A DNA stretch of 64,000 nucleotides, taken from positions 62,001 to 126,000 of the forward strand of contig CASEKC010000003.1 in the NCBI GenBank assembly GCA_949288485.1, read 5' to 3'. The stretch is from an uncultured bacterium (GTDB lineage: Bacteria; Bacillota_I; Bacilli_A; RFN20; CAG-826). The stretch's first letter is position 1, and every line of letters starts with the position of its first letter. The notes beneath the pieces are model-generated. The model saw nothing but the letters and a program-made list of their open reading frames with translations, had not been told where the DNA came from and ran no database searches. The position numbers and the translations under genes are program-made. Positions 21,422 to 59,682 of this stretch are shown piece after piece.

Positions 21422-21495
21422 GGGGGTGTGGTTCAATGGTAGAACAGCGGTCTCCAAAACCGTTGACGTGGGTTCGATTCCTTCCACCCCCGCCA
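21422..21495 (+). tRNA. tRNA-Trp (anticodon CCA), integration site of the element
   Basis: A full cloverleaf: acceptor GGGGGTG/CACCCCC, anticodon loop C-T-CCA-A-A, T-loop GGTTCGATTCC and encoded CCA (21493-21495). An integrase gene starts 121 bp downstream, the usual arrangement when an element uses a tRNA 3' end as its attachment site. Confidence 0.95.
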
Positions 21496-21616: not shown

Positions 21617-22750
21617 ATGGGTGTTAGAAAGTCAAAAATAGATTCAAGATTTTACATTATTGACGGTGTTGTTTTAATTGATGGACAAAGATTTAGGTAT
21701 CATAAACAAGATTTGAATGATAAAAATTTTATGTCTAAAAAATGGTGCCAAGAATACGAACAACGAATTCGACAAGAGATATTAGATAAGAATCAATCTA
21801 AAGATGAATTTAAAAAGTTGTCTATAAAAGGTTTAGTTGAAGCTTATATCGAAAAAATAAAAACTGATGGTTATAGAGAATCAACAATACAATCTCTGAA
21901 CTATAAAATAGATCTTTATATTTATAGTTTTTTTGGCAAAACCATTTTAGTTCATGAAGCTTTTAAAGTTTCGAAATGTGTTGAATTCAGAAATTTTGTT
22001 GGTTCTTTTAATATGACTGCAAATTATAAAAATAAAATACTTGCTTTGTTAAAACAATTAATTAATTACGCAGCTGTTATTAAAGTCATTACATATAATA
22101 CTGAAAGAGATTGTAATAATGTTTTACAATCAATTCGCAATAATGATCAAAAGAAAATAATTCATTCATATACATCGTTTGAAGATGCTACAAAAGTTTG
22201 GGAAAATGCTTCTTCAGATTTTTATAAAAATGTTATTAAGTTTTTCTATTTTTCAGGTTGTCGTATTAGTGAATTTTTAGCCATAATGAAAAAAGATATA
22301 TTCTTTAATACAACAGATAATAATACTTTTTGTGCAGAAGTGTCTATTAATAAACAAGTTAGTAAAACTAAAGGAGAAATTTTACCATATTTAAAAACAT
22401 CCACTTCATATAGAAAAATTAGGTATTATGGCGATGTTGCTTTAGCCTTATATGAATACATAGAAAGAAATGATTTTGACGATGATGATATTGTTTTTAA
22501 TATTTCTAAAACGACTTTTAGAAGAGAATTAACTAAAGCATTTGATAAAGCAGGAGTTCAAAGAAATACTTTCCATGGGTTTGGAAGAAAGTCTATTGCA
22601 ACTTATTTATATAAATATTCAAAAGACGCAAAACTAGCTCAAATATATTTAGGTCATAAAAAAGTTGATATGACAATGAATACTTATGTGCTAAATGAAG
22701 CTTTAGAAGAAAATTTGGATATAATTTTAGAAGAAATAGAAAAGAAGTAG
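21617..22750 (+). CDS. int: Tyrosine integrase of the element
   Basis: 377 residues: an N-terminal arm-binding part, an SAM-like core-binding domain (about 65-170) and the catalytic domain. Visible catalytic residues are Arg216 (G-C-R-I-S-E-F), Lys260, His320, His347 (L-G-H-K-K) and the nucleophile Tyr357 (N-T-Y). The box II motif reads H-G-F-G-R, so the arginine normally three residues after His320 is a glycine and the next residue, Arg324, may replace it. Position next to tRNA-Trp points to site-specific integration and excision of the ICE. Confidence 0.9.
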   Translation: MGVRKSKIDSRFYIIDGVVLIDGQRFRYHKQDLNDKNFMSKKWCQEYEQRIRQEILDKNQSKDEFKKLSIKGLVEAYIEKIKTDGYRESTIQSLNYKIDLYIYSFFGKTILVHEAFKVSKCVEFRNFVGSFNMTANYKNKILALLKQLINYAAVIKVITYNTERDCNNVLQSIRNNDQKKIIHSYTSFEDATKVWENASSDFYKNVIKFFYFSGCRISEFLAIMKKDIFFNTTDNNTFCAEVSINKQVSKTKGEILPYLKTSTSYRKIRYYGDVALALYEYIERNDFDDDDIVFNISKTTFRRELTKAFDKAGVQRNTFHGFGRKSIATYLYKYSKDAKLAQIYLGHKKVDMTMNTYVLNEALEENLDIILEEIEKK

Positions 22751-40134: not shown

Positions 40135-42705
40135 TTAAAACATATTAGTTAATGAATCCAAGTTATTTGTACATTCTGTAATTATTAATTCGTTTTCTGT
40201 GTATGTATGTTCCTTTTTTTCTTGTCTTTCTTTATTTGATTTTGGGAAAGAGAAATTATCTCTTTTTACATTTATTTTTTTAGAAGATTCTTCAGACTTT
40301 TTATATGTGTTCGGATTAAAATTTTCCATAAATTCATTAACGGTATTATTAACTATTGTTCCAATCGATGCTTGATGTTTTGCTGATTCTGCTTTTTTAA
40401 GAAGGAAACGTTTTCTATTTCGTTGATTTTGTTCTCTTATTTTTTGTATTTCAATTGTTTCTTTGTTAATTCCTCTTGCGTTTTTAGCACTAGATGAAGT
40501 TGGTTTATTATCATCTTTCTTTTTTTGCGAAATATCATAGAAAGTATCTCTTTCAGAATAAATAATTTCTTTTTTTGTTGCATCAACAAATCCTTTTTGA
40601 AATAAACCTATCTTATTTGCTACTTTATTAAAATAAGGAACAAAATTAGTTTTACATGGATCTTCTCTAAATAATTTAAAGTAGGCTGTTCCTGTAATCA
40701 TGTTAGTAAGTTGGTTCATTGGAACAATATCTCTACTCGTTAAAGAGTAATTAGCATTAATGTTTCCACTATTCAAATCTTTTGAGGAATTAGAAGAAGA
40801 ACGAGTAACAATTGTTTCTTTTCCTAATTCACCGTGGAAATATTTAACTGTTTCAATGTCTGATGAACCTAAATATAGATGGATAGCACAGTTTGATAAT
40901 ATTGATGAACCTTCCTCTTTGCCGTAAATTGAATATAATTGTGAAACTGATTGTAAAATAATATCAAAATAAATCCATCTTGAACGACAAGCTCCAGTCC
41001 ATTGTTTAAATTCTTTAATTTTAGGCATTTGGGCAAACTCATCTAAATAAAAGTAAGCTTTTCTTTTTAAATGGTCATCTTTTGATTCAGTGGCAAGATA
41101 AATCATAAAGTTATATAACTGTTTAATTAATAATGTTGCAATAGGATATTTTGTAGAGTTTTCATCAGGAATAGTAATAAATAATGCAACTGGTTTTTCT
41201 CCTTCAATAATATCCTTTAAATCGAAATCTGAGCCACTGGTTATATATGTAATTCCACTTGTAAGATATTCTTTTAAAAGCGAATTAGTGTTTGAGATAT
41301 AAGATGATACTGTTTTTTCTGATTCGTTATCAATAATAACTGCAGCAGCTGTCATTGCTCTTGATGTTTTTTTATCTCTATTTTTTAACCATCCAGGCAT
41401 GTCTGATGCCATTTTATTAATAATATTTCCTATATTGTTAATGGTAAATTTTTCTAAGGTCATGTTGTTTTCTGCTTTCGTCGAATCTTCAAGCATCGCC
41501 CAAATACATCCTTCGATAATACCACGAGAACCGCTATTCCATGTTTGGTTTTCTCCAGAACCTTCAGGAATAATAGTCGAAGATAAAGCAAGAATTTCTG
41601 TTGTTACCTTATCAATTAATGATGAATTCTTTAAAATTTCTAAACAAAATAAAACGTTGTTTTGCTTATTCTCGGTCGTGCAAACATAAAATTTTGAAGT
41701 TTCATTATCGACCGTTATAGACATTTTAAATTGAGGAAATCCATTTACTGTTTTTGAAAAAAAGATATTACGATTTTTACTAGAAATAATAATTTTTGAT
41801 TTATCGTCTTTAACAAAAGATATTTTTAACTGATCAAAGATAATTACGTTTTCTTGTTTTGCTAAATTGAAACTTATTACATCTTTAGTTACATTACCAA
41901 TGACTTTTCTGAAAGTGAATTCATCTAAATATGTATGATAATATCTCCACATCAATTCTAATGGATTAAAACGAGTTGAAGAACGCTCATTTCTAAGGTT
42001 AATGTTATAAATTTTATAACCGTTATCACTTAATTTTTTTGAAAGATTATTAAAGAGTTCACCTTTAACATCGTTAATGATCATTGTTGGTTTTTCATCA
42101 CTTAATGAATTAAGTAATATGTTAGGCATTAAAAAGTATTGAGTTTTACCAACACCAGGAGAACCTATTGTAACCATGTTGACATCTCTTGTTAACATTA
42201 AGTATTTAAATTTATTAAACGAAATTTTTGAACTAACAAGCCATCCACTTTTTTCACAATATTTTTTCTTTATAAACCTTTTAAAAAATCTAAAAAGTTT
42301 TCTGTTTGAAAGTTTTGAAGGTGGATAAGAATAATAATTTCTCCCTTTTCTTCCAAACTGTTTAATCATTTCGTCTTCACTCATTAATTTTGAATTTCCA
42401 TAAGCATCTGTTTTAGCTTTAGAATATCCTTGAACAAATTTAGCTGGATTATTGAATTTATATTTAAGTGAATAAAAAATATTGATAACGAGAAAAAGAA
42501 CGGCACCTACAATACTTGTAATAATTGGCAATGTATTTTTATAACTTATTAATACATTTGACCAACCAAATTCAAAACCAATAACAGAATTTGTTTCTTT
42601 GTAATAAATTAAAAGTGCATCTAACACTATTCCTAAAAAGTAAAATAAACCAACTACTATAAGAAATAAAAATAAAGTAAATATTATCCTTTTAAAAATC
42701 CTCAT
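40135..42705 (-). CDS. virD4: VirD4/TraG-type coupling protein (T4CP)
   Basis: 856 residues. Two N-terminal membrane helices (about 5-35 and 60-80), Walker A G-S-P-G-V-G-K-T at about 182-189, Walker B Y-L-D-E-F-A-Q near 555 and the T4CP signature W-T-G-A-C-R-S-R-W. It couples the relaxase-DNA complex to the secretion channel. Between about residues 245 and 345 there is a beta-rich insertion not seen in standard VirD4 proteins. The C-terminal 200 residues are Lys/Asn/Ser-rich and probably disordered. It overlaps the relaxase gene by 14 bp. Confidence 0.93.
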   Translation of the reverse strand: MRIFKRIIFTLFLFLIVVGLFYFLGIVLDALLIYYKETNSVIGFEFGWSNVLISYKNTLPIITSIVGAVLFLVINIFYSLKYKFNNPAKFVQGYSKAKTDAYGNSKLMSEDEMIKQFGRKGRNYYSYPPSKLSNRKLFRFFKRFIKKKYCEKSGWLVSSKISFNKFKYLMLTRDVNMVTIGSPGVGKTQYFLMPNILLNSLSDEKPTMIINDVKGELFNNLSKKLSDNGYKIYNINLRNERSSTRFNPLELMWRYYHTYLDEFTFRKVIGNVTKDVISFNLAKQENVIIFDQLKISFVKDDKSKIIISSKNRNIFFSKTVNGFPQFKMSITVDNETSKFYVCTTENKQNNVLFCLEILKNSSLIDKVTTEILALSSTIIPEGSGENQTWNSGSRGIIEGCIWAMLEDSTKAENNMTLEKFTINNIGNIINKMASDMPGWLKNRDKKTSRAMTAAAVIIDNESEKTVSSYISNTNSLLKEYLTSGITYITSGSDFDLKDIIEGEKPVALFITIPDENSTKYPIATLLIKQLYNFMIYLATESKDDHLKRKAYFYLDEFAQMPKIKEFKQWTGACRSRWIYFDIILQSVSQLYSIYGKEEGSSILSNCAIHLYLGSSDIETVKYFHGELGKETIVTRSSSNSSKDLNSGNINANYSLTSRDIVPMNQLTNMITGTAYFKLFREDPCKTNFVPYFNKVANKIGLFQKGFVDATKKEIIYSERDTFYDISQKKKDDNKPTSSSAKNARGINKETIEIQKIREQNQRNRKRFLLKKAESAKHQASIGTIVNNTVNEFMENFNPNTYKKSEESSKKINVKRDNFSFPKSNKERQEKKEHTYTENELIITECTNNLDSLTNMF

Positions 42706-43903
42706 GAAAAATTTCTCCTATTTTTTCTTTATATTCTTCAATCTCTTGTTCAGCAATTAAATCATCAAGAGTTGCATAATCCTTTTTAAATAATGGATAC
42801 TCTACTAATCCATTTATTAATTCGTTCAATAAGCGATTACTTTCTTTTTCTAGTTGCTTATTTTCAATTGCTTTAGAACGAATAAGACCAATGTCATTTG
42901 CATAGATTTTTCTTGATTTACTAATTTTATGAGTTCGTTTTGCTTCTCTTGTTTTTTTATTATAAGCAAGAGTAGCAAGAGCTAGATCGCCAAATCTATT
43001 ATGTAATTTCTCTAGTTGATCCTCTTTAAACTTTGAATGCTTTTTAATATATTCTTCGGACTCATTAGCTTGACCAATTGCTATATAATTTTCTTGTATT
43101 AAATTAAGTGTATTTTCAAATTCATCTTTAATCATTTTTAAGTTAGGATTTGTCTCGAAAATTTTGTCAATGAAAAAATTTACTTTGGCTTTTTTATCCT
43201 CTGATAAATCTTTATATTTTTTAACTGAAAAATCTTGAATTTCGTTTGCTACTTGAGTTGCTAATTCAGAAGCGGAAAGCATCCTTGTTTCTTGTTTAAA
43301 TAAACCAGTAACTGCATTCTTAAAATTATAATCATATTTATTTTTTATTATCTCTTCTGTGACGATAGACCTATACATATCTAATGTCTTTTTTTGTATT
43401 TTTGGATGCACTTCACTTTTATATCTTAAGTTACCATTTGAATCTTTAAATAGTTTTTCTTTTTCGAAAAATTTTATATGAGCGTGAATGTGTTCTCTGT
43501 CTGTGTGAATACCAGCAATCCACTCAACATTATCTGGTTTGAAACCAGCCATTTTTAAAAATTTATTGAATGTACTTTGGATTGCGTTTTTAGCTGTATC
43601 AGCATCTTGAATGAAATCTGAAACTTGTTTTCCAAAAGAGAAGATGCAGTCATAAACTGGAACATCTAATTCTCGAGATGCTTTTCTAATTTCTTTTATA
43701 TCTTGTTTTGTAAAATCTTTTTCACCATTAAAAAGAGCGGCTCTTTCTCCAACGTATTGTTCAAAGTTATATGATTGTTCATCGTGAGCCCATCTTGATC
43801 TAGCAACTAAACGCCTTTCTTTATTTGTGGTTGGCAAATAATTTTTTGGATAAGATTTTAGATATTCGACTCTAAAAAAATTGCCTAAATATTTGTCTGC
43901 CAT
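42692..43903 (-). CDS. mobL: MobL-type relaxase
   Basis: 403 residues. The HUH metal site is His133-x4-His138-x-His140-x-His142 (G-I-H-T-D-R-E-H-I-H-A-H), with upstream blocks (S-F-G-K-Q-V and a candidate nucleophile Tyr nearer the N-terminus) in the order of MobL/MobP relaxases. The C-terminal half is a long coiled coil. It should nick the transfer origin, which is probably in the gap at 44336-44816, and pilot the strand. Operon: accessory protein, relaxase, VirD4. Confidence 0.85.
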   Translation of the reverse strand: MADKYLGNFFRVEYLKSYPKNYLPTTNKERRLVARSRWAHDEQSYNFEQYVGERAALFNGEKDFTKQDIKEIRKASRELDVPVYDCIFSFGKQVSDFIQDADTAKNAIQSTFNKFLKMAGFKPDNVEWIAGIHTDREHIHAHIKFFEKEKLFKDSNGNLRYKSEVHPKIQKKTLDMYRSIVTEEIIKNKYDYNFKNAVTGLFKQETRMLSASELATQVANEIQDFSVKKYKDLSEDKKAKVNFFIDKIFETNPNLKMIKDEFENTLNLIQENYIAIGQANESEEYIKKHSKFKEDQLEKLHNRFGDLALATLAYNKKTREAKRTHKISKSRKIYANDIGLIRSKAIENKQLEKESNRLLNELINGLVEYPLFKKDYATLDDLIAEQEIEEYKEKIGEIFHEDF

Positions 43904-44816: not shown

Positions 44817-45203
44817 ATGCAAGTTTTATCATTGTTATTCACTAATGTCTTAGTCGAACTTTCCGACAATGCAATGGAAATTATTAGAATGATAGTTACT
44901 ATTGCAAATTATTTATTGCCTACTGTTGGTGCTATCGTTGCAGTTGTATTTTTAGTTAAAACTGTTATCAAAGCCTTAGAAATGAGTAAGGCAAAATCTA
45001 GTGGGGATCAACAAGGTTATCAACATGCTAAAGATGGAGTTATTTGGAGTGTTGTTACTACATTAGGTTGTTTATCTATTGCTATTGTATTTGGATTTGC
45101 AACTGACATTGTTGCCTTAATCTATCCAGAATTTGGTGAATATATTAATGGTTTAGAACAAGGAGCTGAAACTGTTAGTTTAGTTGTCAACTCATTAATT
45201 TAA
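44817..45203 (+). CDS. Small two/three-helix membrane protein, VirB2/pilin-like
   Basis: 128 residues. Three hydrophobic segments (about 1-15, 25-50, 75-105) surround a short polar loop (S-K-A-K-S-S-G-D-Q-Q-G). The layout resembles VirB2/TrbC-type prepilins and small pilin-like proteins of Gram-positive type IV secretion clusters. AAAGGAG precedes the start. It is first in the fibre operon under promoter P5, so it may form the channel or a pilus core. Confidence 0.65.
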   Translation: MQVLSLLFTNVLVELSDNAMEIIRMIVTIANYLLPTVGAIVAVVFLVKTVIKALEMSKAKSSGDQQGYQHAKDGVIWSVVTTLGCLSIAIVFGFATDIVALIYPEFGEYINGLEQGAETVSLVVNSLI

Positions 45204-45267: not shown

Positions 45268-45762
45268 ATGAAAAAAACAAAAATTACAGTTTTAAGTGCT
45301 TTAGCTTGTGGAGCAATTGTAGCAGGAGGTTTTGCTGCATGGACATTTTCTGGTGATGCCAGTAGTGCTCAAACATTAGGAGTTAGTATTGCTACTGCAA
45401 ATGAAAGTGGTAATGTTGCGATTGAAGCTGAAGGTACATTACAACTTGATCAAGGTTCTATTACATGGGATAGCTTTGATGTTAAAGCAACTTACACAGG
45501 TGGAAGTGATTCAACAGAAAATACTGATGGTACTGTTGTTAGAACCTACACTGTTTCATTAGATGATGCTTTAGATGATTATATTGAAATTTCAGCAAAT
45601 GCAAGTGGTAATTGGACAGATGGAACAACTATTACAGCTCCAACATTTGCTTGGGTAAACGAACCACATAATATGACAGAATATAACACAATGAAATCTG
45701 CTATTGAAAACTCCAAGATTACATTTACATTCTCAGCAGATTGGACAGATACTGCTGAATAA
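45268..45762 (+). CDS. TasA/camelysin-like fibre subunit A
   Basis: 164 residues. The N-terminus K-K-T-K...V-A-G-G-F-A-A-W-T-F-S-G-D-A-S-S-A has the long, weakly cut signal typical of SipW substrates such as TasA (G-G-G-T-W-A-A-F-N-D). The mature part is Cys-free, acidic, Thr/Ser-rich and beta-predicted. It aligns with the next gene product over K-A-T-Y-(T/V)-G-G, L-D-x-Y, W-x-D-G and N-x-x-E/D-Y blocks. A dedicated signal peptidase follows two genes later. Probable major subunit of an extracellular fibre. Confidence 0.75.
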   Translation: MKKTKITVLSALACGAIVAGGFAAWTFSGDASSAQTLGVSIATANESGNVAIEAEGTLQLDQGSITWDSFDVKATYTGGSDSTENTDGTVVRTYTVSLDDALDDYIEISANASGNWTDGTTITAPTFAWVNEPHNMTEYNTMKSAIENSKITFTFSADWTDTAE

Positions 45763-45775
45763 TTAGATATTAACT

Positions 45776-46324
45776 ATGAGAAATAAAGCAAAGATAGGAA
45801 TAGTAACTCTATCTTCGCTTGGAATTGTTGCTTACTTGCTTTGTGGGGTGGGAATTCTCACCTCACAACAAGTTGCGTTAGATAACGCAGGATCGCTTGG
45901 TGTTCATTATGATTCTGACAGTGATAATGTAGTTATTGAAAACGGCTCTTCTAATGGCGAAAATGTTGAGCCAAATCCTGATGAAGATTATGAAAATTAT
46001 GAAGGTAAAGCATTGTTATTTTTGAATGATAATGAAGTATCCTTAGTCGGCCAATTAAAAGCAACTTACGTGGGCGGAGAAAATGTCAACCGTTACTATG
46101 TAATTGAGATGAGTGAAGAGCTTGATAGGTACGTAAAAGTTTCTGAAAGTGAAACCTTTAGATGGGAAGATGGAGTTCCTATTAATCCTAAATTTGAATT
46201 TAAGACTAATATGAATCCACAGAATTATGATGAATACTTAAAGCTACTTAAAAACTTTGAAGAAGATAAACCTTATTTAAGAATTAAATTTGGAGTTGCT
46301 ATAAATGAAGGAGGTAATAATTAA
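45776..46324 (+). CDS. Fibre subunit B, paralogue of subunit A
   Basis: 182 residues. A signal-like hydrophobic N-terminus (I-V-T-L-S-S-L-G-I-V-A-Y-L-L-C-G-V-G), an acidic Asn/Asp/Glu linker, and a domain matching subunit A (K-A-T-Y-V-G-G, L-D-R-Y-V-K-V-S, W-E-D-G-V-P-I, N-P-Q-N-Y-D-E-Y, L-R-I-K-F). Probably a minor subunit or fibre adaptor. Its stop shares a base with the signal peptidase start. Confidence 0.7.
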   Translation: MRNKAKIGIVTLSSLGIVAYLLCGVGILTSQQVALDNAGSLGVHYDSDSDNVVIENGSSNGENVEPNPDEDYENYEGKALLFLNDNEVSLVGQLKATYVGGENVNRYYVIEMSEELDRYVKVSESETFRWEDGVPINPKFEFKTNMNPQNYDEYLKLLKNFEEDKPYLRIKFGVAINEGGNN

Positions 46325-47610
46325 TGACTAGTTTAGAAATATTTAATTTAATAGTTTACATTGTTTTAGCTTTAGTAATATTTTCCTTCTTCTTTTTAGC
46401 AGTTAAAGTTTGGTTTAATTCTGAAAGTGAATTAATCGGAGTTGGAAAATATGATGATGAAATTAGAAAGAATAAAAAGAAAAAAGAACATAAAATTTGG
46501 AAATATGTAAGAAATGTTCTTTCAGCTGTTTTATTAGGTGGCGTCCTTGGTTTAGCTATAACATTATTTGTTACAACAACCGTTAAAGAATCGATTAACG
46601 TAATTGGAACAGCACCTATCTCTATTCTTTCAGGTTCAATGTCAGAAAAAAATCATTTGAATGAATATTTATTTGAAAATGATTTAAATGATCAATTCAA
46701 TGAAGGTGATTTAATTTTATTAGATAAATTACCTGAACAAGATGATTTAGAGTTATATGACATCGTTGGTTATTTTAATAGCGATGGAGAATTAGTTGTT
46801 CATAGAATAATCGGTGGAGGATATTATGATGAACAAAATGTTTTCCATTATGTAGATAATCTTGATGATGCAGAAAACTACATTATGAGAGGTGATGCTA
46901 ATAATAATTCTGATAGTATTTATATTACTTATGACGACATGTATGGAATTTATGATGGATATAAAATTCCATATTGCGGATTTGTAACACAATATCTTCA
47001 ATCAGGATTCGGAATTGTTTCTTTATGTGGTATTGCAGGCATTATTTTCTCTTATGATTATTATGTTGATAAATATAATAAAAAATATAATGCTAGAAAA
47101 GATGAAGTTAGTGAAGAAGAACCAAATATTGATTCTGAAAATACATCTGAACTAAGCGTAGAAGAAAAAGATGTTGAATTATTAAACGAACCTGATTATT
47201 TACAAATCGGTGAATCAACTGGCGAAGTTTCTGATGAACTAGAAGCAGAACAAGAAGATACCTTTACCGATTTAGAAAAAGATTTAGCTGAAGAAGCAGA
47301 TATTAATGGAGAAATAACTGAAGATATTCCTCAAGATGTTAATTCTAACGATGAAATAAATATCGTTGATTTAAAAGAAGAGGAAGGATTACAAGATGAT
47401 AATTCTTTAAATAAAACTGATAAAGAATCAGAACAAGCTAATGTTAGTGATATTGATATCGAAGAATTAAATATAAATGAATCTACCTTTGAATTCAAAA
47501 AAGACGAAGAGGAAGTTGAAAAGAAAGAAAAGATTAATAAAGATGATTATTTGTATGGTGAAAGAAACGAGAAAGATGTTCGTTCTACCGTAAAACGTTT
47601 AAATAAATAA
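46324..47610 (+). CDS. sipW: SipW-type signal peptidase I with acidic tail
   Basis: 428 residues. Membrane helices at about 5-30, 62-85 and 222-245. The catalytic Ser105 lies in L-S-G-S-M and the second residue is His160 in V-V-H-R-I, the Ser-His dyad of SipW/ER-type enzymes rather than the Ser-Lys of ordinary LepB. M-R-G-D-A-N-N forms the conserved later box. A cytoplasmic tail of 170 residues, mostly Glu/Asp, is not found in B. subtilis SipW. It should mature the fibre subunits and the shufflon protein encoded around it. Confidence 0.9.
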   Translation: MTSLEIFNLIVYIVLALVIFSFFFLAVKVWFNSESELIGVGKYDDEIRKNKKKKEHKIWKYVRNVLSAVLLGGVLGLAITLFVTTTVKESINVIGTAPISILSGSMSEKNHLNEYLFENDLNDQFNEGDLILLDKLPEQDDLELYDIVGYFNSDGELVVHRIIGGGYYDEQNVFHYVDNLDDAENYIMRGDANNNSDSIYITYDDMYGIYDGYKIPYCGFVTQYLQSGFGIVSLCGIAGIIFSYDYYVDKYNKKYNARKDEVSEEEPNIDSENTSELSVEEKDVELLNEPDYLQIGESTGEVSDELEAEQEDTFTDLEKDLAEEADINGEITEDIPQDVNSNDEINIVDLKEEEGLQDDNSLNKTDKESEQANVSDIDIEELNINESTFEFKKDEEEVEKKEKINKDDYLYGERNEKDVRSTVKRLNK

Positions 47611-47613
47611 TTT

Positions 47614-47937
47614 ATGAATAAACAAGAAGTTGATTGTTTAGTTAGACAATGTGCAGATGCTTTGGAGGATAACGGATTTATAGATAAAAAAGAAATAGGA
47701 CAAAAAGGCAGGGTACAATTATTTTTATTAAACTTATGTGATGTTGTATCACCTTCCTATCTTGAATATTGTGTTAAGGATTTTATTAATTTTCACAATA
47801 ATCATCCTAAAAATATAAAGAAAAAATATAATTATCTAACTAATTCTTTATCTAAAAACATTGTTTCATCTAACAATTTAAAAAAATATAGAGAAATCAT
47901 CGAATTAATCAACAAATATAATCAGGAGGTTAAATAA
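47614..47937 (+). CDS. Unknown small protein, 107 aa, in the fibre operon
   Basis: A helical, basic, cytoplasmic-looking protein with C-L-V-R-Q-C near the start and a K-K-K-Y-N-Y-L-T patch. No family recognised. It lies 3 bp after the signal peptidase and 2 bp before the shufflon gene, so it is co-translated with them. Confidence 0.55.
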   Translation: MNKQEVDCLVRQCADALEDNGFIDKKEIGQKGRVQLFLLNLCDVVSPSYLEYCVKDFINFHNNHPKNIKKKYNYLTNSLSKNIVSSNNLKKYREIIELINKYNQEVK

Positions 47938-47939
47938 GT

Positions 47940-49391
47940 ATGAATTTTAAAAGTAAATTTGCCATAATTTTAGCTTCAACCTCCATTGCTTTAGGTACTG
48001 GTGGAGGTTTAGCTACGTGGCAATATTCAAAAGATGCTTCTGCCGCTCATGATCATCATATTCATATTGGAGACTTTGTTTTTAATACGATACAAATTAC
48101 CGAAAGTCCAAATTCTTCCGCTGGAACATTAAGTAAAACACTTAATTCTACTAACAACATAAGATGTGACGGACAACCTTTAGGATTTGTTGGCGGTCAA
48201 ATAGATTTAACGCAATATTTTACCGTTACACCTTTAGAAGGAGTCTCTCAAACAAACAATTTATTATTTTCCATACAAAGTGGTGAAGGTAGGATATCTG
48301 GCAATACTCTTATCGGTGGAGAAACAAGTGGCAATATTGTAGTACGAGCTTATGAAGAAGGGTATGAAGATAATTATTTAGATTTAACGTTTACAAACAA
48401 TTTAACAGTTAATAAAAGCGAACATCAAAGCGTACGAACATACACAAATATTTCTTGGGGAAATCGGAGTTCTTATACATCAACTTCAAGTACACACACA
48501 AGAACAAGAACTGGTACATTATCTTATAATGATAATTGTTCAGTATGTGGTAGTAATTTAGGTAGTGGAAGTGTCGAAGTAAATACTTCTAATTACGATA
48601 GTTATGCAACTTACGATACAACTGGATTAGGAGCAACACAAAGTGGCAACCATAATATGATAAGAAGTTATGGAACTATTTCTTGGGGCAGTTGGAGTGA
48701 TTATTCTCAATACGGTAGTTCTCAACATCAAAGAACAAGAACTGGTACATTATCTTATACAGAAAGTTGCTCAGATTGTGGTAGAAGTGGAAATAGTGGT
48801 TCTATTACTATTAACTCTAGTAATTATTCAACTTACGCTCAATACAACACTTCATCATCTACGTATCAAGAAATAGAAAGTTGCAATGATGATAAGAGTT
48901 CTTATGTAAGTAGTTCTACTAGTAGCACTTATTGGGGTAGTTGGACAGATTCTGGTTCTGAATATTCAGAAGTCACAAGAGAACCAACTTGTACTTCGAC
49001 AGGAACTAGAACTACATATCAAGACCAAACTAGAAGTGGATATTATTATAGATATGCTTCTGGCTATAACTATTATTGTGATTGTTGTAATAGATTTATG
49101 AGATCTACTGGACAAGGTAGTACAAGAGTTGATACATCAGATAGTAGAACTCTAACTGTTGGTAGTAGTACTATATCAGCAACAGGACACTCATACGGAA
49201 GTTCGAGTGATAAAGAAGAGTACACATCAATGGGTTCTTCTGGTCATCAAATAGATCATTATCAAATTTGTAAAAACTGTGGCTATGAACATTATACATA
49301 CACTTCAACAGATGGTCATACATGGGGTGAAAGACACTATGGATCGTATACTCAAATTTATTGTACTTATTGTGGATATGTAAAAAGTTAA
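47940..49391 (+). CDS. Secreted shufflon-tipped fibre/adhesin protein with tail 1
   Basis: 483 residues. The N-terminus (A-L-G-T-G-G-G-L-A-T-W-Q-Y-S-K-D-A-S-A) is a SipW-type signal. Residues about 40-160 form a beta domain; 164-240 and 240-316 are two copies of a Thr/Ser/Tyr-rich repeat, each with R-T-R-T-G-T-L-S-Y and a C-x-x-C-G pair; two further C-x-x-C pairs follow. The constant part ends at I-S-A-T-G-H (residues 412-417), encoded by recombination site S1, after which the last residues form the variable tail with C-K-N-C-G and C-T-Y-C-G. Like PilV of R64 it would be the tip that meets the recipient cell; that role is inferred. Confidence 0.85.
   Translation: MNFKSKFAIILASTSIALGTGGGLATWQYSKDASAAHDHHIHIGDFVFNTIQITESPNSSAGTLSKTLNSTNNIRCDGQPLGFVGGQIDLTQYFTVTPLEGVSQTNNLLFSIQSGEGRISGNTLIGGETSGNIVVRAYEEGYEDNYLDLTFTNNLTVNKSEHQSVRTYTNISWGNRSSYTSTSSTHTRTRTGTLSYNDNCSVCGSNLGSGSVEVNTSNYDSYATYDTTGLGATQSGNHNMIRSYGTISWGSWSDYSQYGSSQHQRTRTGTLSYTESCSDCGRSGNSGSITINSSNYSTYAQYNTSSSTYQEIESCNDDKSSYVSSSTSSTYWGSWTDSGSEYSEVTREPTCTSTGTRTTYQDQTRSGYYYRYASGYNYYCDCCNRFMRSTGQGSTRVDTSDSRTLTVGSSTISATGHSYGSSSDKEEYTSMGSSGHQIDHYQICKNCGYEHYTYTSTDGHTWGERHYGSYTQIYCTYCGYVKS
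48501..48759 (+). repeat. 28-bp direct repeat inside the constant region
   Basis: Identical 28-bp copies at 48501-48528 and 48732-48759, 231 bp (77 codons) apart and in the same frame. They are the DNA core of the two protein repeats, so recombination between them would remove exactly one repeat unit without a frameshift. Confidence 0.85.
49172..49190 (+). repeat. Shufflon recombination site S1
   Basis: TATATCAGCAACAGGACAC, plus orientation, at the constant/variable border (codons 412-417 start at 49173). 14 of 19 positions are invariant among the four sites. Confidence 0.9.
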
Positions 49392-49393
49392 TT

Positions 49394-49412
49394 TATATCA
49401 GCACTAGGTCAT
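49394..49412 (+). repeat. Shufflon recombination site S2
   Basis: TATATCAGCACTAGGTCAT, plus orientation, 2 bp after the stop of tail 1; opens tail 2. Confidence 0.9.
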
Positions 49413-49640
49413 TCTTGGTCTTATACGGGCTCATCCAAATATAGTTATTATAGTAAGGGCGGTTGTCAAGAAATGGGTGAAAGAGAATGTTCAAGATGCC
49501 ACGATACAGAATGGGTTGGAAGAGGTATTGGAAGTCATAGTATCTTTACAATAACTTCTTACGGATCACAATATCTAGGTCAATGTTCCAAATGTGGTCA
49601 TCAAGGAACCTATGATGGTTCATCAAATAGTTTTAACTAA
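49395..49640 (+). CDS. Silent shufflon tail 2 (81 codons, no start)
   Basis: The open frame runs from the site codons I-S-A-L-G-H through S-W-S-Y-T-G to TAA 49638-49640. It carries C-S-R-C-H and C-S-K-C-G-H pairs and many Gly/Ser/Tyr. There is no ATG with a ribosome site and no promoter, so it is expressed only if recombination joins it to the constant region. The Cys spacing and amino acid use match the tails in the other segments. Confidence 0.85.
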   Translation: MSALGHSWSYTGSSKYSYYSKGGCQEMGERECSRCHDTEWVGRGIGSHSIFTITSYGSQYLGQCSKCGHQGTYDGSSNSFN

Positions 49641-49646
49641 TTTTTT

Positions 49647-49665
49647 TATATCAGCACTCGGACAC
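49647..49665 (+). repeat. Shufflon recombination site S3
   Basis: TATATCAGCACTCGGACAC, plus orientation, 6 bp after the stop of tail 2; opens tail 3. Confidence 0.9.
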
Positions 49666-49986
49666 ATAAAAGGAACTTATCATATTAATAGAACAACATA
49701 TGCTAATAGACAACATATGACTACAGCATGGTGGGATTGTGCAAGATGTGGAGGCATTTACGAAACAGTTAATGCAGGAACTGTAGAATCTTGCACTGGA
49801 ATAGTAAAAGAGACTGGATATCGTTCTAATTCAAGTCAACATTGGACTTATACAATATATGAATGCCAATATTGCAATGGAAGTTGGACTGTAGAAGGAA
49901 CAAAGAGAAGTCACACAGGCGATAGTGATCCTACTGGCAATCCAGCAGCAAAAACATGCACTGTTTGTGGAACAGTTTATTATTAA
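49648..49986 (+). CDS. Silent shufflon tail 3 (112 codons, no start)
   Basis: Frame from I-S-A-L-G-H-I-K-G to TAA 49984-49986. It has C-A-R-C-G-G, C-Q-Y-C-N-G and C-T-V-C-G pairs, so three possible zinc knuckles. The longest tail of the set. Any upstream ATG in the same frame would read noncoding sequence out of register with tail 2, so it is not an independent gene. Confidence 0.85.
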   Translation: MSALGHIKGTYHINRTTYANRQHMTTAWWDCARCGGIYETVNAGTVESCTGIVKETGYRSNSSQHWTYTIYECQYCNGSWTVEGTKRSHTGDSDPTGNPAAKTCTVCGTVYY

Positions 49987-49993
49987 AAAAAGA

Positions 49994-50017
49994 GCGGATT
50001 TATTTCCGCCCTTTTTT
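49994..50017. terminator. Terminator between tails 3 and 4, usable in both directions
   Basis: GCGGA/TCCGC core stem with A run before and T run after. It lies inside the invertible block and reads as a terminator from either side, which keeps transcription ending properly in either orientation. Confidence 0.75.
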
Positions 50018-50064
50018 ATGATGTAAAAGTATAACTGTTTAAATAATACTAATTTTTGACATAA

Positions 50065-50391
50065 CTAAGCTCGTTCCTGTTTTGTTTGACCACATTGAGT
50101 ACAAGTATAAATAATATAATTTCCTGCTTGAGTACCACTGTTCCAAGAATGTGCCAGAGTCGTTCTTTGAACATAATTACAATAACGACAAGATCTCTGT
50201 CTATAATGGTATGTTGAATTATATCTTGAATAAGTATAAGAACCGTAAGAACAAGCTGCTCTTGGATCACCCGCATCAGGTAAAGAATAATCGCAACGAG
50301 TGCATTCAGTATGGGTAACTCTTTGGTGATAACCATTATATTGAGAACTATATCTGGTTTCACTCTTCATATCATGTCCTAATGCTGATAT
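50065..50391 (-). CDS. Silent shufflon tail 4, inverted (108 codons, no start needed)
   Basis: On the minus strand the frame runs from I-S-A-L-G-H-D-M-K at site S4 to TAG at 50065-50067. It contains C-T-R-C-D, C-R-Y-C-N and C-T-Q-C-G pairs and an internal C. Its orientation opposite to tails 1-3 is the direct sign that inversion is the switching reaction. Confidence 0.85.
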   Translation of the reverse strand: MSALGHDMKSETRYSSQYNGYHQRVTHTECTRCDYSLPDAGDPRAACSYGSYTYSRYNSTYHYRQRSCRYCNYVQRTTLAHSWNSGTQAGNYIIYTCTQCGQTKQERA

Positions 50392-50392
50392 A
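50374..50392 (-). repeat. Shufflon recombination site S4 (inverted)
   Basis: On the minus strand TATATCAGCATTAGGACAT. It ends 1 bp before the recombinase stop codon. Confidence 0.9.
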
Positions 50393-50393
50393 A

Positions 50394-51335
50394 TTAAAAA
50401 TATTTATATTTACTTACATTTTTGATTTTTCCTATTTTATTTTCTTCACAAATATCTGCATCAGAGATATTTACATATATTTCAGTTGTTTTAATTGACG
50501 AATGACCTAAAATAACTTTTAGTTTAAACATATTGCTATTATATTTAATCCAATCACTGGCAAATTTATGCCTTAAGTTGTGTGGAAATAATTTGTGATT
50601 TTTATTTATTTTTAACTTTATTGCAATTCGATAAAGTGACCTTCTAAAACTATCGTATTTATAAATTTTATTTTTATCTGAAAAGAATAAGTTGTCCGTA
50701 TTCCATTTATTATTAAGACTTCTCATTTCAATATATTTTTTTAATTCTTGAAGAATATTTTGATTAATCGGTACAAGCCTTTCTTTGTATGTTTTAGTAT
50801 TTCTAATTAATATAGTTTTGTTCTTTAAATCAATATCGTTCATTTTTAAATTTAGACATTCGTTGCATCTTAATCCACTTGTTAAAAGTATTAGAAAAAT
50901 AACTTTGTTTCTTAAATAAGGAAATGGATCTTTGCTTCTTTCAATGTTTCTATTATATAGATTTATTATTCTTTGAATCTCGTTGTCTTGAAGATAATAT
51001 TTAACTTTCTTTTCAAGTTTAAAAAGCATATAAGGTTTAAAGGGTATTGAACCGTTATAAAAATTAAAATCACTTAATTTTTGATAATAAGATTTTAATA
51101 TTGAATAAGCTTTATTTGCATATTCTTTACTAGTCTTAATAGAAAGTTCTGATAAGAAAGAAACAACTAAATCGGAATCAACATCATCTAAAGTTTTAAC
51201 TTTCTTAGAATTAAGATAGTCATAAAATAGATTAATAACTCTTTCATATCCTTTTTTAGTGCCATCTTTTAATTGATAAATAATTTTCTCAAAGTAAATA
51301 GTTTTTGCATTTGTAAGTTTTAATTTGTGTTTCAT
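50394..51335 (-). CDS. Tyrosine recombinase, probable shufflon invertase (Rci-like)
   Basis: 313 residues. An N-terminal SAM-like domain (about 15-90) and a catalytic domain with the complete set Arg156, Lys181, His252-x-x-Arg255, His278 and Tyr287 (L-P/F-P-H-N-L-R-H-K, L-G-H-S-S, E-I-Y). It is distinct from the ICE integrase at 21617 and lies against the last recombination site, exactly as rci does in R64. AGGAGG sits before the ATG. It probably recombines the 19-bp sites S1-S4; the activity is inferred from position and motifs. Confidence 0.85.
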   Translation of the reverse strand: MKHKLKLTNAKTIYFEKIIYQLKDGTKKGYERVINLFYDYLNSKKVKTLDDVDSDLVVSFLSELSIKTSKEYANKAYSILKSYYQKLSDFNFYNGSIPFKPYMLFKLEKKVKYYLQDNEIQRIINLYNRNIERSKDPFPYLRNKVIFLILLTSGLRCNECLNLKMNDIDLKNKTILIRNTKTYKERLVPINQNILQELKKYIEMRSLNNKWNTDNLFFSDKNKIYKYDSFRRSLYRIAIKLKINKNHKLFPHNLRHKFASDWIKYNSNMFKLKVILGHSSIKTTEIYVNISDADICEENKIGKIKNVSKYKYF

Positions 51336-51619
51336 TTATTCCTCCTAAAATTAAAAATGTATACTTTCAAATTTTATTAATTAAATACAAATATTTTAAA
51401 TAGAATAAATATCTATCTAGGAAAGAAAAACTTAAATATCACGATAAAATTCGTATTTTTTATATATTTTAAACTATTTAGAAAATTTGAAAAAATTTAC
51501 TTGCAAACTACAAAAATTGTAATTATAATATAGACATAAGATAAAAATTTGTAACTTAATTACAAAATTTATTTTAAAAAATAATTAAATGAGTTATTAA
51601 TTCGGAGGTACTTAATTTT
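51336..51619. promoter_or_regulatory. Divergent promoter region of recombinase and lipoprotein
   Basis: AT-rich spacer with a strong promoter toward the lipoprotein: TTGCAA (51501-51506), 17 nt, TATAAT (51524-51529). The mRNA leader of about 80 nt ends with GGAGG. No shared-type 11-mer is present, so this unit is controlled separately from the transfer operons. Confidence 0.7.
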
Positions 51620-52524: not shown

Positions 52525-53193
52525 ATGACTATTAAGGATTTAACTCCAGTTCAACAATTAATGTTCTTATATAATTTAAAAAATTTAACTTTATCCAACA
52601 TTTTAAAAGTAAATAATCATGTTTTGGAAGATATTGTTAAAAATACAGCTTTAACTCCTAATGTGAATACATTAAAAATTTTAAGCAACTACTTAAATGT
52701 AACGATCGATCTAATTTTAAATCATTCTTTGAAAAATTCTGTAAAAATTGAAAATGCTAATTTAAAAGAATCTGTATATGTCGATTTTTATGAATACATT
52801 ATTCTTAGAAGCAGAAATATTATTACTGATGTTGTAGAAGAAAATAGAATTCGTCACGAAATAAAGAGCGATTCATTATTATTGATTTCTAATAATATTA
52901 TGATTAATAAATTAGCTTTTGAAGAAAGCGATTCAATCAATATCACTCATCCAATACATCAAATTCTTTTTAAATCTAGCAATCTAAATTATATTTATAA
53001 AACAAAATACAATCTTTATACAGAATATATAGAATCGGTTGTTTATAATGTTTATTCTTTCAATTTTGCTAGAAAAATGATGGCTAAATTAAATAAGGAC
53101 GAAGGTGAAATTGTTATAAAAAGAGTTGAAACCTACATTGAAAAAATAAGAGATGGAGGTAAAAATGAGGAGGAAAGTAGAAAAAATAATTAG
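52525..53193 (+). CDS. HTH-like regulator R1
   Basis: 222 residues. The first 70 (T-P-V-Q-Q-L-M-F-L-Y-N-L-K-N-L-T-L-S-N-I-L-K-V and L-K-I-L-S-N-Y-L-N-V-T-I-D-L-I-L) have the helix pattern of XRE-type regulators without the usual core residues. The rest is helical with no known motif. It is paralogous to the next gene. GTAGAGGTAAAAT precedes the ATG, the same string as before the third gene of the cluster. It is a candidate activator of the shared-type promoters. Confidence 0.6.
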   Translation: MTIKDLTPVQQLMFLYNLKNLTLSNILKVNNHVLEDIVKNTALTPNVNTLKILSNYLNVTIDLILNHSLKNSVKIENANLKESVYVDFYEYIILRSRNIITDVVEENRIRHEIKSDSLLLISNNIMINKLAFEESDSINITHPIHQILFKSSNLNYIYKTKYNLYTEYIESVVYNVYSFNFARKMMAKLNKDEGEIVIKRVETYIEKIRDGGKNEEESRKNN

Positions 53194-53695
53194 TAATCCA
53201 ATTAGATTGCTTTTATATATTTATAACATTCCTCTTAGAAGTCTAGTTAACGTTTTAGATGAAAAAGAAGGATACATTTATCAAAGCATAAGAAATTATG
53301 ATTTTTATCAAAAACCTTATTCTTTTATAGAAAAATTTGCAAACTTTTTAAATACAACTCAAGATTTTTTTGTTAGAAGAGATCTTAATAAATGTATTAA
53401 AGTTAATGTTTTAAATAAAATCTATTTGTTAGATTTAAAAGACTATATTATAGCTAGAGGGAAAGGAGTAATAGAAGAAAAGTTAGATAAAGAGAATAAA
53501 ACTATTTTAAGAAAGATTACTAATATTGACATTATTCAAGAAATAATAATGTCTGAAAAAAATGGATTAAATCTTTCTAAATTATTAGAAAAATATAATT
53601 ATGTAGATCAATCTAAACTTATGCTTGTTAAATCAACAAATCTTAATTATAAGAGAGAAAGTTTAGAAGAAATTTATAATTATTTTGTTAATTAA
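53165..53695 (+). CDS. HTH-like regulator R2
   Basis: 176 residues from ATG 53165, which has GGAGGT ahead; it overlaps R1 by 29 bp. N-terminal pattern I-R-L-L-L-Y-I-Y-N-I-P-L-R-S-L-V-N-V-L then F-A-N-F-L-N-T-T-Q-D-F-F resembles R1 and XRE folds. The middle D-L-K-D-Y-I-I-A-R-G matches D-F-Y-E-Y-I-I-L-R-S in R1. Two such adjacent paralogues may act as a heteromeric regulator. Confidence 0.6.
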   Translation: MRRKVEKIISNPIRLLLYIYNIPLRSLVNVLDEKEGYIYQSIRNYDFYQKPYSFIEKFANFLNTTQDFFVRRDLNKCIKVNVLNKIYLLDLKDYIIARGKGVIEEKLDKENKTILRKITNIDIIQEIIMSEKNGLNLSKLLEKYNYVDQSKLMLVKSTNLNYKRESLEEIYNYFVN

Positions 53696-56856: not shown

Positions 56857-59682
56857 ATGCTTAGATATTGTCCAAAAAGAATGAAAGAAAAGACCAAAAT
56901 TTTTGGTCAATTAACACTTATAGACATTGTTTTAATGTTTATTGGGCTTATAGTCGCAGTCATCATTTTAGCAATTGGAGGTTTTACTGAGGCTTTCTTA
57001 ATAAAACTTCCTTTTGCAATTATTGTATTAATTATTGCTTTCTTCTTTAATTATCCTTTAACTGGTGAGGGAAGTACTAGAATAAGAACTCATTTAAAAA
57101 ATTTCTTAAAATATGCTTTTAGAAAGAAGAAATATAATTCTTGTTGTTTATCTAAAGATCTAGGACTTGAGTTTAATGAAAAGTATGTTTTCCATAAAGG
57201 AAGAGGTATTTATTCAGTTGTTTTAGAAATTGAACCATCTTTATTTATTCTTAAAAACGAAGAAGAACAAGATGATATTATTAATAATTTAGCGAATGCT
57301 TTTCTTTATCCTTCTAAATTTACATTAATAAAAACTGACATGTTTATGAATGTTGGAACTTATTATGAAAATAACCAAGAAAAGATTAATTCTTTAGAAC
57401 CTAAAATTAATACTGATATTGCTGCTTTTAGTGAAATGAAGGTATTAAAGGAAGAGGAATATTATTTAAAAGAATATTTAACAAGACAATATACTAATCC
57501 TAAATATTTTATTATTGTCTATGATTTTAAAATCGAAAATTTAGAATCTGTTGTTTCTGATTTTATGAACCAACTTAAAATGGCTAAATTTGATTCTAAA
57601 ATTGCAAGCGATAAAGTAATTAAAAAATTATATAAAAATTATTATGACTGTATCGAAAATGAAAAAGGTGATTTAGTCACTAATGATTGGTACGAAAAAT
57701 ATAATCATGTCGTTGCTAAAGTTGGTAAAGACGAAAAAGGAAATGAAATTTTTAGAAAGTTTAAAGTTTTTAGTATCCAAAATTTACCTAGAAGAGTAAG
57801 AAATGGATGGTTAGCTGATTTAAGTAATATTAATGGTGTTAAATTAAGTTTTAAGGTAGGAAGTCCAGTTCAAGCATTAAAAATTAAAAATGTTTTAAGT
57901 GGAAGTGCTGTTGAGCTTAGAATGCAGCTTTCAAAACCAAAAAAACTCTATGAACAAGAAGAAATTGAATATCAAATTGACTGTATTAATCAACTTATCA
58001 GTGATTTAAATAATGGTAATATTCAAGTTAGAAATTGCTATGTTAATTTTTTAGTACCATTAGAAGCAGAAAAGGAATTTTTACAACAAGCTAATTTAAT
58101 GCAAATTGGAATTGATAGATTATTATTTAGACAAGCTGAAGCATATCTTAATTGTGATTTATTTAAATTCCTAAATCTCAAAGAAATGAAAGGTGTTTCT
58201 AACGAGTTTACATCAGATATTATCGCTAGTGCTTATCCATTTATTTATCCAACATTCTTCGATAAGAAAGGACAATATATTGGTGATTCAATGGGATTAC
58301 CAGTCTTCTTTGATCCATTCTATAATTTAAATGGGGATTCAAATTACCGTGTTAATGCAAATATTTCAATTACTGGAACATCAGGTGTTGGAAAATCATA
58401 TCTATCAAAAGTTATTTTGTTGAATTCAGCAACAACTGTTCAAAAAATTAGAATTTTAGATCCAGAGAATGAATATTCGATTTTAGCTAATAATTTATTT
58501 GGTAAGGTTATTAATGTTGCTGGTGGAATTGAAACAGTTAATCCACTTCAAATTTTTACTTCGATTAATGAAGATAAAAATGATGAAAAGAATGTAGTCA
58601 CTTTACATAAACAATTTTTAGAAGAATTTTTTAAAACTGCAATCAAAAGACTTCAAGATGATGATTTATTATCTTCATATTTATTTAAAGCAGTAGATGT
58701 TCTTTATTCTCGCTGGAATTATTATGACGGATGTGAATTATCTTCTAATCCAAAAGATTATCCATTAATTAAAGACTTATATTCTTTATTAGAAGAACTT
58801 TATTCTAATGAAATTCAAAAGAAAAATGAGTATGAAGCTCATTATTATAAAGAACTATTAATTTTATTATCTTCATTTATTGGAGAAGGCAATAAAGCAA
58901 AATTATGGAATAATTACACAACCTTATCTCTTGATAATAAGATTATTGTTTTTAATTTCCAATCATTATTAAATTCAGCTAATAAAAATATATCGGCTGC
59001 TCAAATGCTTTTAATAATGAAATTTTTAAATCAAGAAATCGCAATGAACAGAAATAATAATCATTTATTAAATAAAGAAGATAAAGTAATGATTATGGTT
59101 GATGAAGCTCATAATTTTATTTCTAAAGATTATCCAATTGCTTTAAATTTCCTATACAAAATGAGTAAGCAAATTAGAAAATATTTTGGTTCATTAATAA
59201 TTACAACTCAACAAATTAATGACTTTTTAGGAGGAGATGAAAATACTGCAAAACTCGCAAGAGGTATTATTGCTAACTGCCAATATTCGTTTATTTTTGG
59301 TAATCCTAACGCTGTTAATGAAGTTAAAAATCTTTATGGAGAAATCATGAATTTTACTGAAGAAGAATTGAAGATTTTAAGAGATAATCAACAAGGAACT
59401 TGTTTAATGCAACTTTCCCCGATGGTTAGATCTATTCTTAAAGTTGCTTGCATAGGCGATTCTTCGATTTATTTTAATGATAGCGATATCAAAGAAGCTT
59501 TAATTGATTCTTACAATGAAATTAGCGATATTCCATTTAATGAAACGAAAGAAGTTATTGATAATAACGAAAATGAAGAAGTGAAAGAAAAAGGTAATGA
59601 CATTGTTTTTAGAAACGATGAAATTACTATAACTAGAGAAGACTTAGAATTTCTTAAAAGTATTAAATTAAACAGTAATTAG
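56857..59682 (+). CDS. virB4: VirB4-type ATPase fused to a PrgI-like head
   Basis: 941 residues. The first 100 hold two membrane helices in a PrgI-like arrangement; the rest is a VirB4/TraE ATPase with Walker A G-T-S-G-V-G-K-S (507-514) and Walker B M-V-D-E-A-H-N-F (about 747-754). It powers assembly of the conjugation channel and pilus. Fusion of PrgI with VirB4 is known from other Gram-positive elements. No VirB8/TcpC or cell-wall hydrolase is seen in the window; they are probably beyond the right edge. Confidence 0.92.
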   Translation: MLRYCPKRMKEKTKIFGQLTLIDIVLMFIGLIVAVIILAIGGFTEAFLIKLPFAIIVLIIAFFFNYPLTGEGSTRIRTHLKNFLKYAFRKKKYNSCCLSKDLGLEFNEKYVFHKGRGIYSVVLEIEPSLFILKNEEEQDDIINNLANAFLYPSKFTLIKTDMFMNVGTYYENNQEKINSLEPKINTDIAAFSEMKVLKEEEYYLKEYLTRQYTNPKYFIIVYDFKIENLESVVSDFMNQLKMAKFDSKIASDKVIKKLYKNYYDCIENEKGDLVTNDWYEKYNHVVAKVGKDEKGNEIFRKFKVFSIQNLPRRVRNGWLADLSNINGVKLSFKVGSPVQALKIKNVLSGSAVELRMQLSKPKKLYEQEEIEYQIDCINQLISDLNNGNIQVRNCYVNFLVPLEAEKEFLQQANLMQIGIDRLLFRQAEAYLNCDLFKFLNLKEMKGVSNEFTSDIIASAYPFIYPTFFDKKGQYIGDSMGLPVFFDPFYNLNGDSNYRVNANISITGTSGVGKSYLSKVILLNSATTVQKIRILDPENEYSILANNLFGKVINVAGGIETVNPLQIFTSINEDKNDEKNVVTLHKQFLEEFFKTAIKRLQDDDLLSSYLFKAVDVLYSRWNYYDGCELSSNPKDYPLIKDLYSLLEELYSNEIQKKNEYEAHYYKELLILLSSFIGEGNKAKLWNNYTTLSLDNKIIVFNFQSLLNSANKNISAAQMLLIMKFLNQEIAMNRNNNHLLNKEDKVMIMVDEAHNFISKDYPIALNFLYKMSKQIRKYFGSLIITTQQINDFLGGDENTAKLARGIIANCQYSFIFGNPNAVNEVKNLYGEIMNFTEEELKILRDNQQGTCLMQLSPMVRSILKVACIGDSSIYFNDSDIKEALIDSYNEISDIPFNETKEVIDNNENEEVKEKGNDIVFRNDEITITREDLEFLKSIKLNSN

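Follow-up and report, generated by a model that had tools for sequence, protein, structure and literature searches.

A probable tail-switching shufflon on a secreted-protein gene within an integrative conjugative element of the gut bacterium Candidatus Onthovivens

We analysed a stretch of 64,000 nucleotides (contig CASEKC010000003.1, hereafter the window) from an uncultured gut bacterium of the Bacilli, genus Candidatus Onthovivens, whose genome comprises 1,358,632 bases. At the locus under study, the constant part of a gene for a secreted protein runs into the first of four short recombination sites, each site opens a separate C-terminal tail, and the array ends at a gene for a XerC/D-like tyrosine recombinase (Table 1). 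An earlier note on this DNA had read the locus as a shufflon of several tails, served by a tyrosine recombinase of its own and carried by an integrative conjugative element (ICE) of a Gram-positive-lineage bacterium, and this reading is borne out by the tail joints found in relatives and by the attachment (att) repeats found in tRNA-Trp.

The four sites lie where the earlier note had placed them, with 14 of 19 bases common to all. They are 18-19 bp long and asymmetric, and in the window they encode I-S-A-(T/L)-G-H in frame. Behind each lies an in-frame tail of 72-112 codons that ends in a stop codon; three tails face right and one left, and tail 1 alone continues the frame begun at the ATG of the constant gene, all as first described. 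Tails 2 and 3 hold internal in-frame ATG/GTG starts (49473 and 49594), with no sign of use. The site pattern TATATCAGCANNNGGNCA has exactly four exact matches in the window, and the same four remain the only matches in the whole genome when one mismatch is permitted; the reversed pattern, run as a control over the same genome at the same tolerance, gave 0 matches. Genomes of other genera, again with one mismatch permitted, contained scattered single background matches, at most two per genome and on different contigs.

The repeats might simply reflect a conserved peptide motif of tandem protein modules, the DNA similarity being a by-product and the adjacent recombinase unrelated, and many fixed proteins of this family do have modules bounded by I-P-A-L-G-H. 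Such fixed proteins, however, mostly use ATT CCT GCT, whereas all 14 sites known from three genomes (the window and two relatives, G022 and G021) use ATA (T/C)CA GCx, with ATA in 14 of 14, then TCA or CCA, then GCA in 13 of 14. In other relatives, the repeat proteins have fixed I-(S/P)-A-x-G-H motifs (n = 7) that read ATT (ATC once), mostly CCT or TCT, and then GCT, and the chance of ATA-TCA-GCA coding for Ile-Ser-Ala is ~0.025 per site. This codon choice, unlike that of the fixed motifs, means that the nucleotide sequence itself is constrained, beyond the need of the peptide. The tails also stand on both strands with stop codons between them, and homology between relatives ends exactly at the site; a peptide motif as the whole explanation is highly improbable. 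A chance origin of the array is excluded by the genome-wide uniqueness of the sites, by their codon choice and by their recurrence in two relatives.

The recombinase gene is complete, as the earlier note had it, with its stop codon 1 bp from the last site and the catalytic set R156, K182, H252, R255, H278 and Y287 all present; 26 residues follow the catalytic Tyr. The protein is 85% identical in G022 and 84% identical in G021, beside the same sites in both. The gene is a mosaic relative to its counterpart in G022 (L025 6001-6939): codons 105-182 have 96-100% DNA identity and codons 27-78 have 60-64%, while the flanks otherwise have ~73%, a pattern that suggests DNA exchange between elements of different species. 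The recombinase scores with XerC, XerD and integron integrase models, as would be expected if the locus were an integron-like cassette system whose tails are inserted and excised by a XerC/D-like enzyme. Integron cassettes share a single orientation and have palindromic attC sites, whereas here the sites are short and asymmetric and the tails face both ways round a central spacer in all three genomes, so that we hold an integron-like system to be very unlikely.

Close relatives of the recombinase (71-85% identical) were found in three of 243 related genomes, all Candidatus Onthovivens (G021, G022 and G023) and one of them filed as Candidatus Onthovivens merdipullorum; the G023 contig terminates inside the recombinase gene. 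The array has four sites in G022 and six in G021, with both orientations represented and every site opening an in-frame tail, and across the window, G022 and G021 all 14 tails are in frame. From the constant gene to the recombinase, the window order is T1+ T2+ T3+ / T4- and the G022 order is KWSSS+ NLSSD+ / NWGST- IKGTYH-; in G021, whose contig starts at a tail, the order up to the recombinase is KWSSS+ LEHSYG+ / NWGST- NWGSN- DLTFT- KWSSS''-. All three arrays thus have rightward tails, then a spacer, then leftward tails.

Tails have been exchanged between these related elements exactly at the site. First, the recombinase flank is joined to three different tails in the three genomes. G022 and G021 are 96.5% identical across 4.2 kb through the recombinase, and this identity ends at the recombinase-side site: it is 93.8% over 500 bp towards the recombinase and 32%, about chance level, over 200 bp towards the tail, and the tails beyond that joint are IKGTYH and KWSSS, respectively. 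Second, the cassette of window tail 3 has 78% DNA identity to G022 1281-1634, where it is inverted and adjoins the recombinase. Third, the G022 constant gene, which is preceded by the same pilin-like genes and peptidase gene as in the window, is fused in frame to the KWSSS tail (the complete gene comes from two contigs with a 99-base identical overlap). The constant part is therefore joined to different tails at the site in the window and in G022, as in a shufflon in the general sense, and wherever the tails of the window, G022 and G021 are fused differently, the joints lie at this same short site. In addition, the first base of the G021 contig is exactly base 1 of a site. Since the two KWSSS copies of G021 differ at base 19, this break cannot be put down to a repeat of more than 18 bp shared at that point; it is suggestive of a sequenced population in which that tail was joined to several different left flanks. 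Shufflons are known to defeat assembly (PMC5430464).

Bases 11-13 of the site vary between tails and largely track the tail where a tail is shared. They thus appear to travel with the tail, which would place the crossover to their left, within TATAYCAGCA. At position 5, all six G021 sites (L026 4155, 4421, 4667, 4890, 5364 and 5636) have C, giving TATACC (Pro), and all window and G022 sites have T, giving TATATC (Ser). The C in every G021 site is a concerted change within one array, despite flanks that are 96.5% identical to G022.

We propose that the XerC/D-like recombinase would act at these asymmetric 18-19 bp sites, the right half of the site moving with the tail, and that recombination between opposed sites would invert the intervening DNA and join another tail in frame to the constant part; TATATCAGCA is the site sequence at which the active enzyme would invert DNA. 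When only inversions are allowed, the window array behaves as three segments (T1; T2; T3 with T4) with 12 reachable orders, and each of the four tails can reach the expressed position in at most two inversions. The earlier note overlooked that a common extracellular repeat, of the I-P-A-L-G-H/C-x-x-C kind, has its boundary motif encoded by the site. Because the site covers these I-S/P-A-L-G-H boundary codons, any swap would leave the terminal module with a proper boundary. In our judgement it is very probable that this recombinase switches tails at these sites, and we infer that this enzyme does the switching, that inversion is the main route, ahead of cassette gain or loss, and that switching occurs within clones.

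The sites could instead mark a slowly evolving cassette array, in which tails are gained, lost and exchanged between elements, by homologous or site-specific recombination, without phase switching inside a clone. Cassette content does differ between elements, including the pairing in the central segment, the mosaic recombinase gene shows that elements exchange DNA, and the data so far are all between strains. The opposed sites, the dedicated recombinase kept by the array in all three genomes, the conservation of site DNA beyond peptide need, and the contig break exactly at a site are in keeping with active recombination, and we regard a slow array as unlikely, though less so than the integron-like system.

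The tails themselves belong to a recognisable kind of module. Each window tail has at least two C-x-x-C pairs, and in an alignment of the 14 tails I1, A3, H6, one G and C33/C36/C64/C67 (two C-x-x-C pairs) are invariant. A tail profile search matched long secreted lipoproteins of relatives, which are built of tandem modules with C-x-x-C and an I-P-A-L-G-H boundary; each tail is accordingly a terminal form of this common extracellular module. The predicted model of tail 1 alone is a compact beta domain, with a mean predicted local distance difference test score (pLDDT) of 85.7, and a fold search with it gave nothing significant. A zinc-ribbon identity was considered and not accepted as the function of the tails; the matches were weak and rested on the C-x-x-C pairs alone. 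A fixed secreted protein with ISALGH/C-x-x-C modules, and without a recombination site, is found near other secreted repeat proteins in a genome of the genus Onthovivens (G010, L090 7685-9166).

The constant part starts with an N-terminal signal-like segment, followed by tandem beta-rich repeats with C-x-x-C pairs. Its N-terminal 277 amino acids are 64% identical in G022, where the constant part is 405 amino acids long. In the predicted model of the full protein, the repeats at 163-298 reach a pLDDT of ~60-80, and the N-terminal third and the linker at 299-410 are poor (mean pLDDT 50); a fold search with this model gave nothing significant, and the constant protein has no Pfam match. Just upstream lie genes for a SipW-like signal peptidase, 69% identical in G022 at the same location, and for small secreted proteins. 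Gene proximity and a W-x-(F/Y)-S-x-D-A-S motif common to the constant protein and the pilin-like protein at 45268 point to possible maturation of the constant protein by the SipW-like peptidase; signal-peptide models did not match the constant protein, even at E 10. The neighbourhoods of SipW-like genes in 20 relatives contained transfer genes or a recombinase in none.

This cluster and the array lie within an ICE of 55.8 kb, inserted in tRNA-Trp and flanked by 16-bp direct repeats, whose right part extends ~13 kb past the window edge. The element has an integrase, a relaxase, a coupling protein, a VirB4 ATPase and ends with att repeats. Its integrase has nearly no similarity to the shufflon recombinase and is therefore a distinct enzyme. 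In G021, a region with VirB6-like and VirB4 genes (L146 79-5065; VirB4 54% identical to that of the window) is probably another part of that genome's copy of the same ICE family. Two adjacent regulator-like genes beside a lipoprotein gene (window 52525-53695 and L025 3680-4874) are conserved in related elements and have no family match.

Table 1. Features of the shufflon locus and of the surrounding element, in window coordinates unless stated otherwise
Feature	Position	Strand	Remarks
Constant part of secreted protein	47940..49171	+	411 codons up to first site; full open reading frame 47940-49391
Recombination site 1	49172-49190	+	TATATCAGCAACAGGACAC; joint of constant part and tail 1
Recombination site 2	49394-49412	+	TATATCAGCACTAGGTCAT
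Recombination site 3	49647-49665	+	TATATCAGCACTCGGACAC
Recombination site 4	50374-50392	-	TATATCAGCATTAGGACAT; inverted
Tail 1	49173..49391	+	72 amino acids; now joined to start codon
Tail 2	49395..49640	+	81 amino acids; silent in present arrangement; resembles tails NLSSD (G022) and DLTFT (G021)
Tail 3	49648..49986	+	112 amino acids; silent in present arrangement
Tail 4	50065..50391	-	108 amino acids; silent; faces left
Terminator-like hairpin in spacer between right- and left-facing tails	49994..50018	+	GCGGATTTATTTCCGC then T-run; 2 such in 4.2 kb against 1.0 expected in shuffles, weak alone
XerC/D-like tyrosine recombinase, presumed shufflon invertase	50394-51335	-	313 amino acids; PF00589 6.5e-33
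Small secreted protein, probably pilin-like or fibre-like	45268..45762	+	G022 homologue 64% identical; no family match
Second small membrane or secreted protein, same cluster	45776..46324	+	
SipW-like type I signal peptidase	46324..47610	+	Long acidic C-terminal extension; NF046067 8.6e-15, 54.8 bits against curated cut-off of 190
Type IV secretion system pilin-like protein	44817..45203	+	PF18895 3.9e-05 and Mbov_0395 family NF045849 3e-04, both under curated cut-offs
MobL/MobP-like relaxase	42692..43903	-	PF18555 1.4e-09
VirD4-type coupling protein	40135..42705	-	PF02534 2.2e-46; CD1115 family 2e-67, 228 bits against cut-off of 250
VirB4-like transfer ATPase	56857..59682	+	AAA_10 3.2e-10
ICE tyrosine integrase, beside att site	21617..22750	+	PF00589 8.1e-13
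Left ICE end, 3' end of tRNA-Trp	21480-21495	+	CCTTCCACCCCCGCCA; 16-bp repeat
Right ICE end	contig C3 139227-139242 (window scale 77227)		Second copy of 16-bp repeat

The most likely function of a tail switch would be to give a surface or fibre protein from the conjugation cluster a different terminal binding module, and thereby to change the partner cell or surface that is held, in the manner of the PilV tails of the plasmid R64. Taken on its own, an adhesin function is plausible by analogy, with chances a little short of even, and the tails may, by the same analogy, have a role in choosing recipients. Also to be considered is a real shufflon in which the variable protein is used for phase or antigenic variation, to evade phage, host immunity or protists, or for surface attachment, rather than for partner choice. 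The membership of the tails in a C-x-x-C/IPALGH repeat present in ordinary surface lipoproteins of the family fits such a use, and the same plan is behind antigenic variation at vsa in Mycoplasma pulmonis (PMC2268961). The gene, on the other hand, is part of the conjugation cluster of a 55.8-kb ICE, has pilin-like and peptidase genes as neighbours, and shares its neighbour order with R64. A use other than partner choice is a genuine possibility, though not one we would expect to prevail.

Our fuller proposal is tentative and could well prove wrong: a monoderm ICE would have a partner-choosing shufflon of an origin independent of Rci and PilV, the recombinase and adhesin of R64, in which a recombinase came to recognise the coding sequence of a widespread extracellular module boundary, I-P-A-L-G-H, ordinary C-x-x-C surface modules can thereby be captured as new tails, and the active tail sets the recipient cells. 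Four points weigh against the main reading, tail switching by this recombinase at these sites. First, all array comparisons are between species-level genomes. Second, the partners in the central two-tail segment differ between the three genomes (IKGTYH/DMKSE, NLSSD/NWGST and LEHSYG/NWGST), so that inversion is not the whole history and cassettes were also gained, lost or exchanged. Third, the C-terminal domain of Rci is thought to hold that enzyme to inversions, and the window recombinase, which has no such domain, would have to avoid deletion between direct sites by other means. Fourth, no structure or family match points to a tail ligand. The proposal bears on a wider question: how conjugating cells choose their partners has been worked out for a few Gram-negative plasmids, but is little understood in the ICEs of monoderm gut bacteria. 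A shufflon built independently, on a secreted protein of a conjugation cluster, suggests that switching of a terminal binding module is a recurrent solution. The locus offers a concrete gene and tail set, and its recombinase-site pair, in which the Rci-type C-terminal domain is absent, is a further one for studying why such enzymes prefer inversion to deletion.

Searches were extended beyond these relatives. Scans of viral contigs with the constant protein, the recombinase and the peptidase found no relative; when the site pattern was used, seven contigs had a single match and none had an array. Plasmid and phage collections contained no relative of the constant protein and distant recombinases only, at ~32% identity or less among the matches listed, and 395 genomes of the class yielded no further close recombinase. 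In the literature searched, with most subscription journals outside it, we found no earlier description of an ICE of Bacilli that carries a shufflon.

Tyrosine-recombinase shufflons of Gram-positive prophages, which the earlier note overlooked, have been described as the Rin systems of Bifidobacterium and Eggerthella (PMC6109161, PMC8778435). Like the window system, they have Gram-positive hosts, an arm-less Xer-like tyrosine invertase and the constant N-terminus of a binding protein (PMC6109161, PMC8778435), with variable C-termini of 95-100 residues, short asymmetric sites and the recombinase at the far end of the array. The Rin systems differ in varying a prophage receptor-binding protein, in being non-conjugative and in the kind of tail, the enzymes being set side by side by description; the Rin site TTCCCTAACCC (PMC6109161) also differs from the window sites. 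The vsa/HvsR system of Mycoplasma pulmonis (PMC2268961), from a distantly related lineage of low guanine-plus-cytosine content, similarly uses site-specific inversion to join a constant 5' part to silent 3' parts, and a tyrosine recombinase gene lies near by. It is a chromosomal surface lipoprotein locus outside an ICE, likened here by description only, and the sites among mycoplasma systems are reported as unrelated (PMC2268961).

The closest parallel in plan is the PilV/Rci shufflon of R64 (IncI1), whose sequence we analysed as a control and which shows a prepilin peptidase beside pilV, seven sfx sites and an rci product of 384 amino acids. R64, like TP114 (IncI2), is a conjugative element with a constant secreted-protein gene and silent C-terminal tails facing both ways; it likewise has asymmetric 19-bp in-frame sites and an adjoining tyrosine recombinase, and its constant gene is directly preceded by a gene for a peptidase. 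The earlier note had taken the window locus to follow this plan. The layout stands, with peptidase gene, constant gene, tail array and recombinase in the same order, but the likeness does not extend to the site, to the family features of the recombinase or to the PilV adhesin. A search of the plus strand of 47901-51400 for the R64 sfx site GTGCCAATCCGGTNNNTGG, with up to 5 substitutions allowed, gave no match, and the constant part has no similarity to PilV (best 18.9 bits, E 0.40). The window recombinase is 27% identical to Rci over 148 amino acids only (E 4e-09), is closer to XerC/D-like proteins of the host (1e-21), and does not have the extra C-terminal domain that Rci-family recombinases carry (PMC11852207). 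It is also convergent with the constant gene, whereas in R64 the two are in tandem; no type IV pilus genes were recognised, and the host is a member of the Bacilli. In R64 the tail determines which recipient is chosen in liquid mating. In TP114, PilV tails set conjugation specificity (PMC9045228). By the sequence tests made, the window shufflon would work like that of R64 yet is non-homologous to it, and independent of Rci and PilV.

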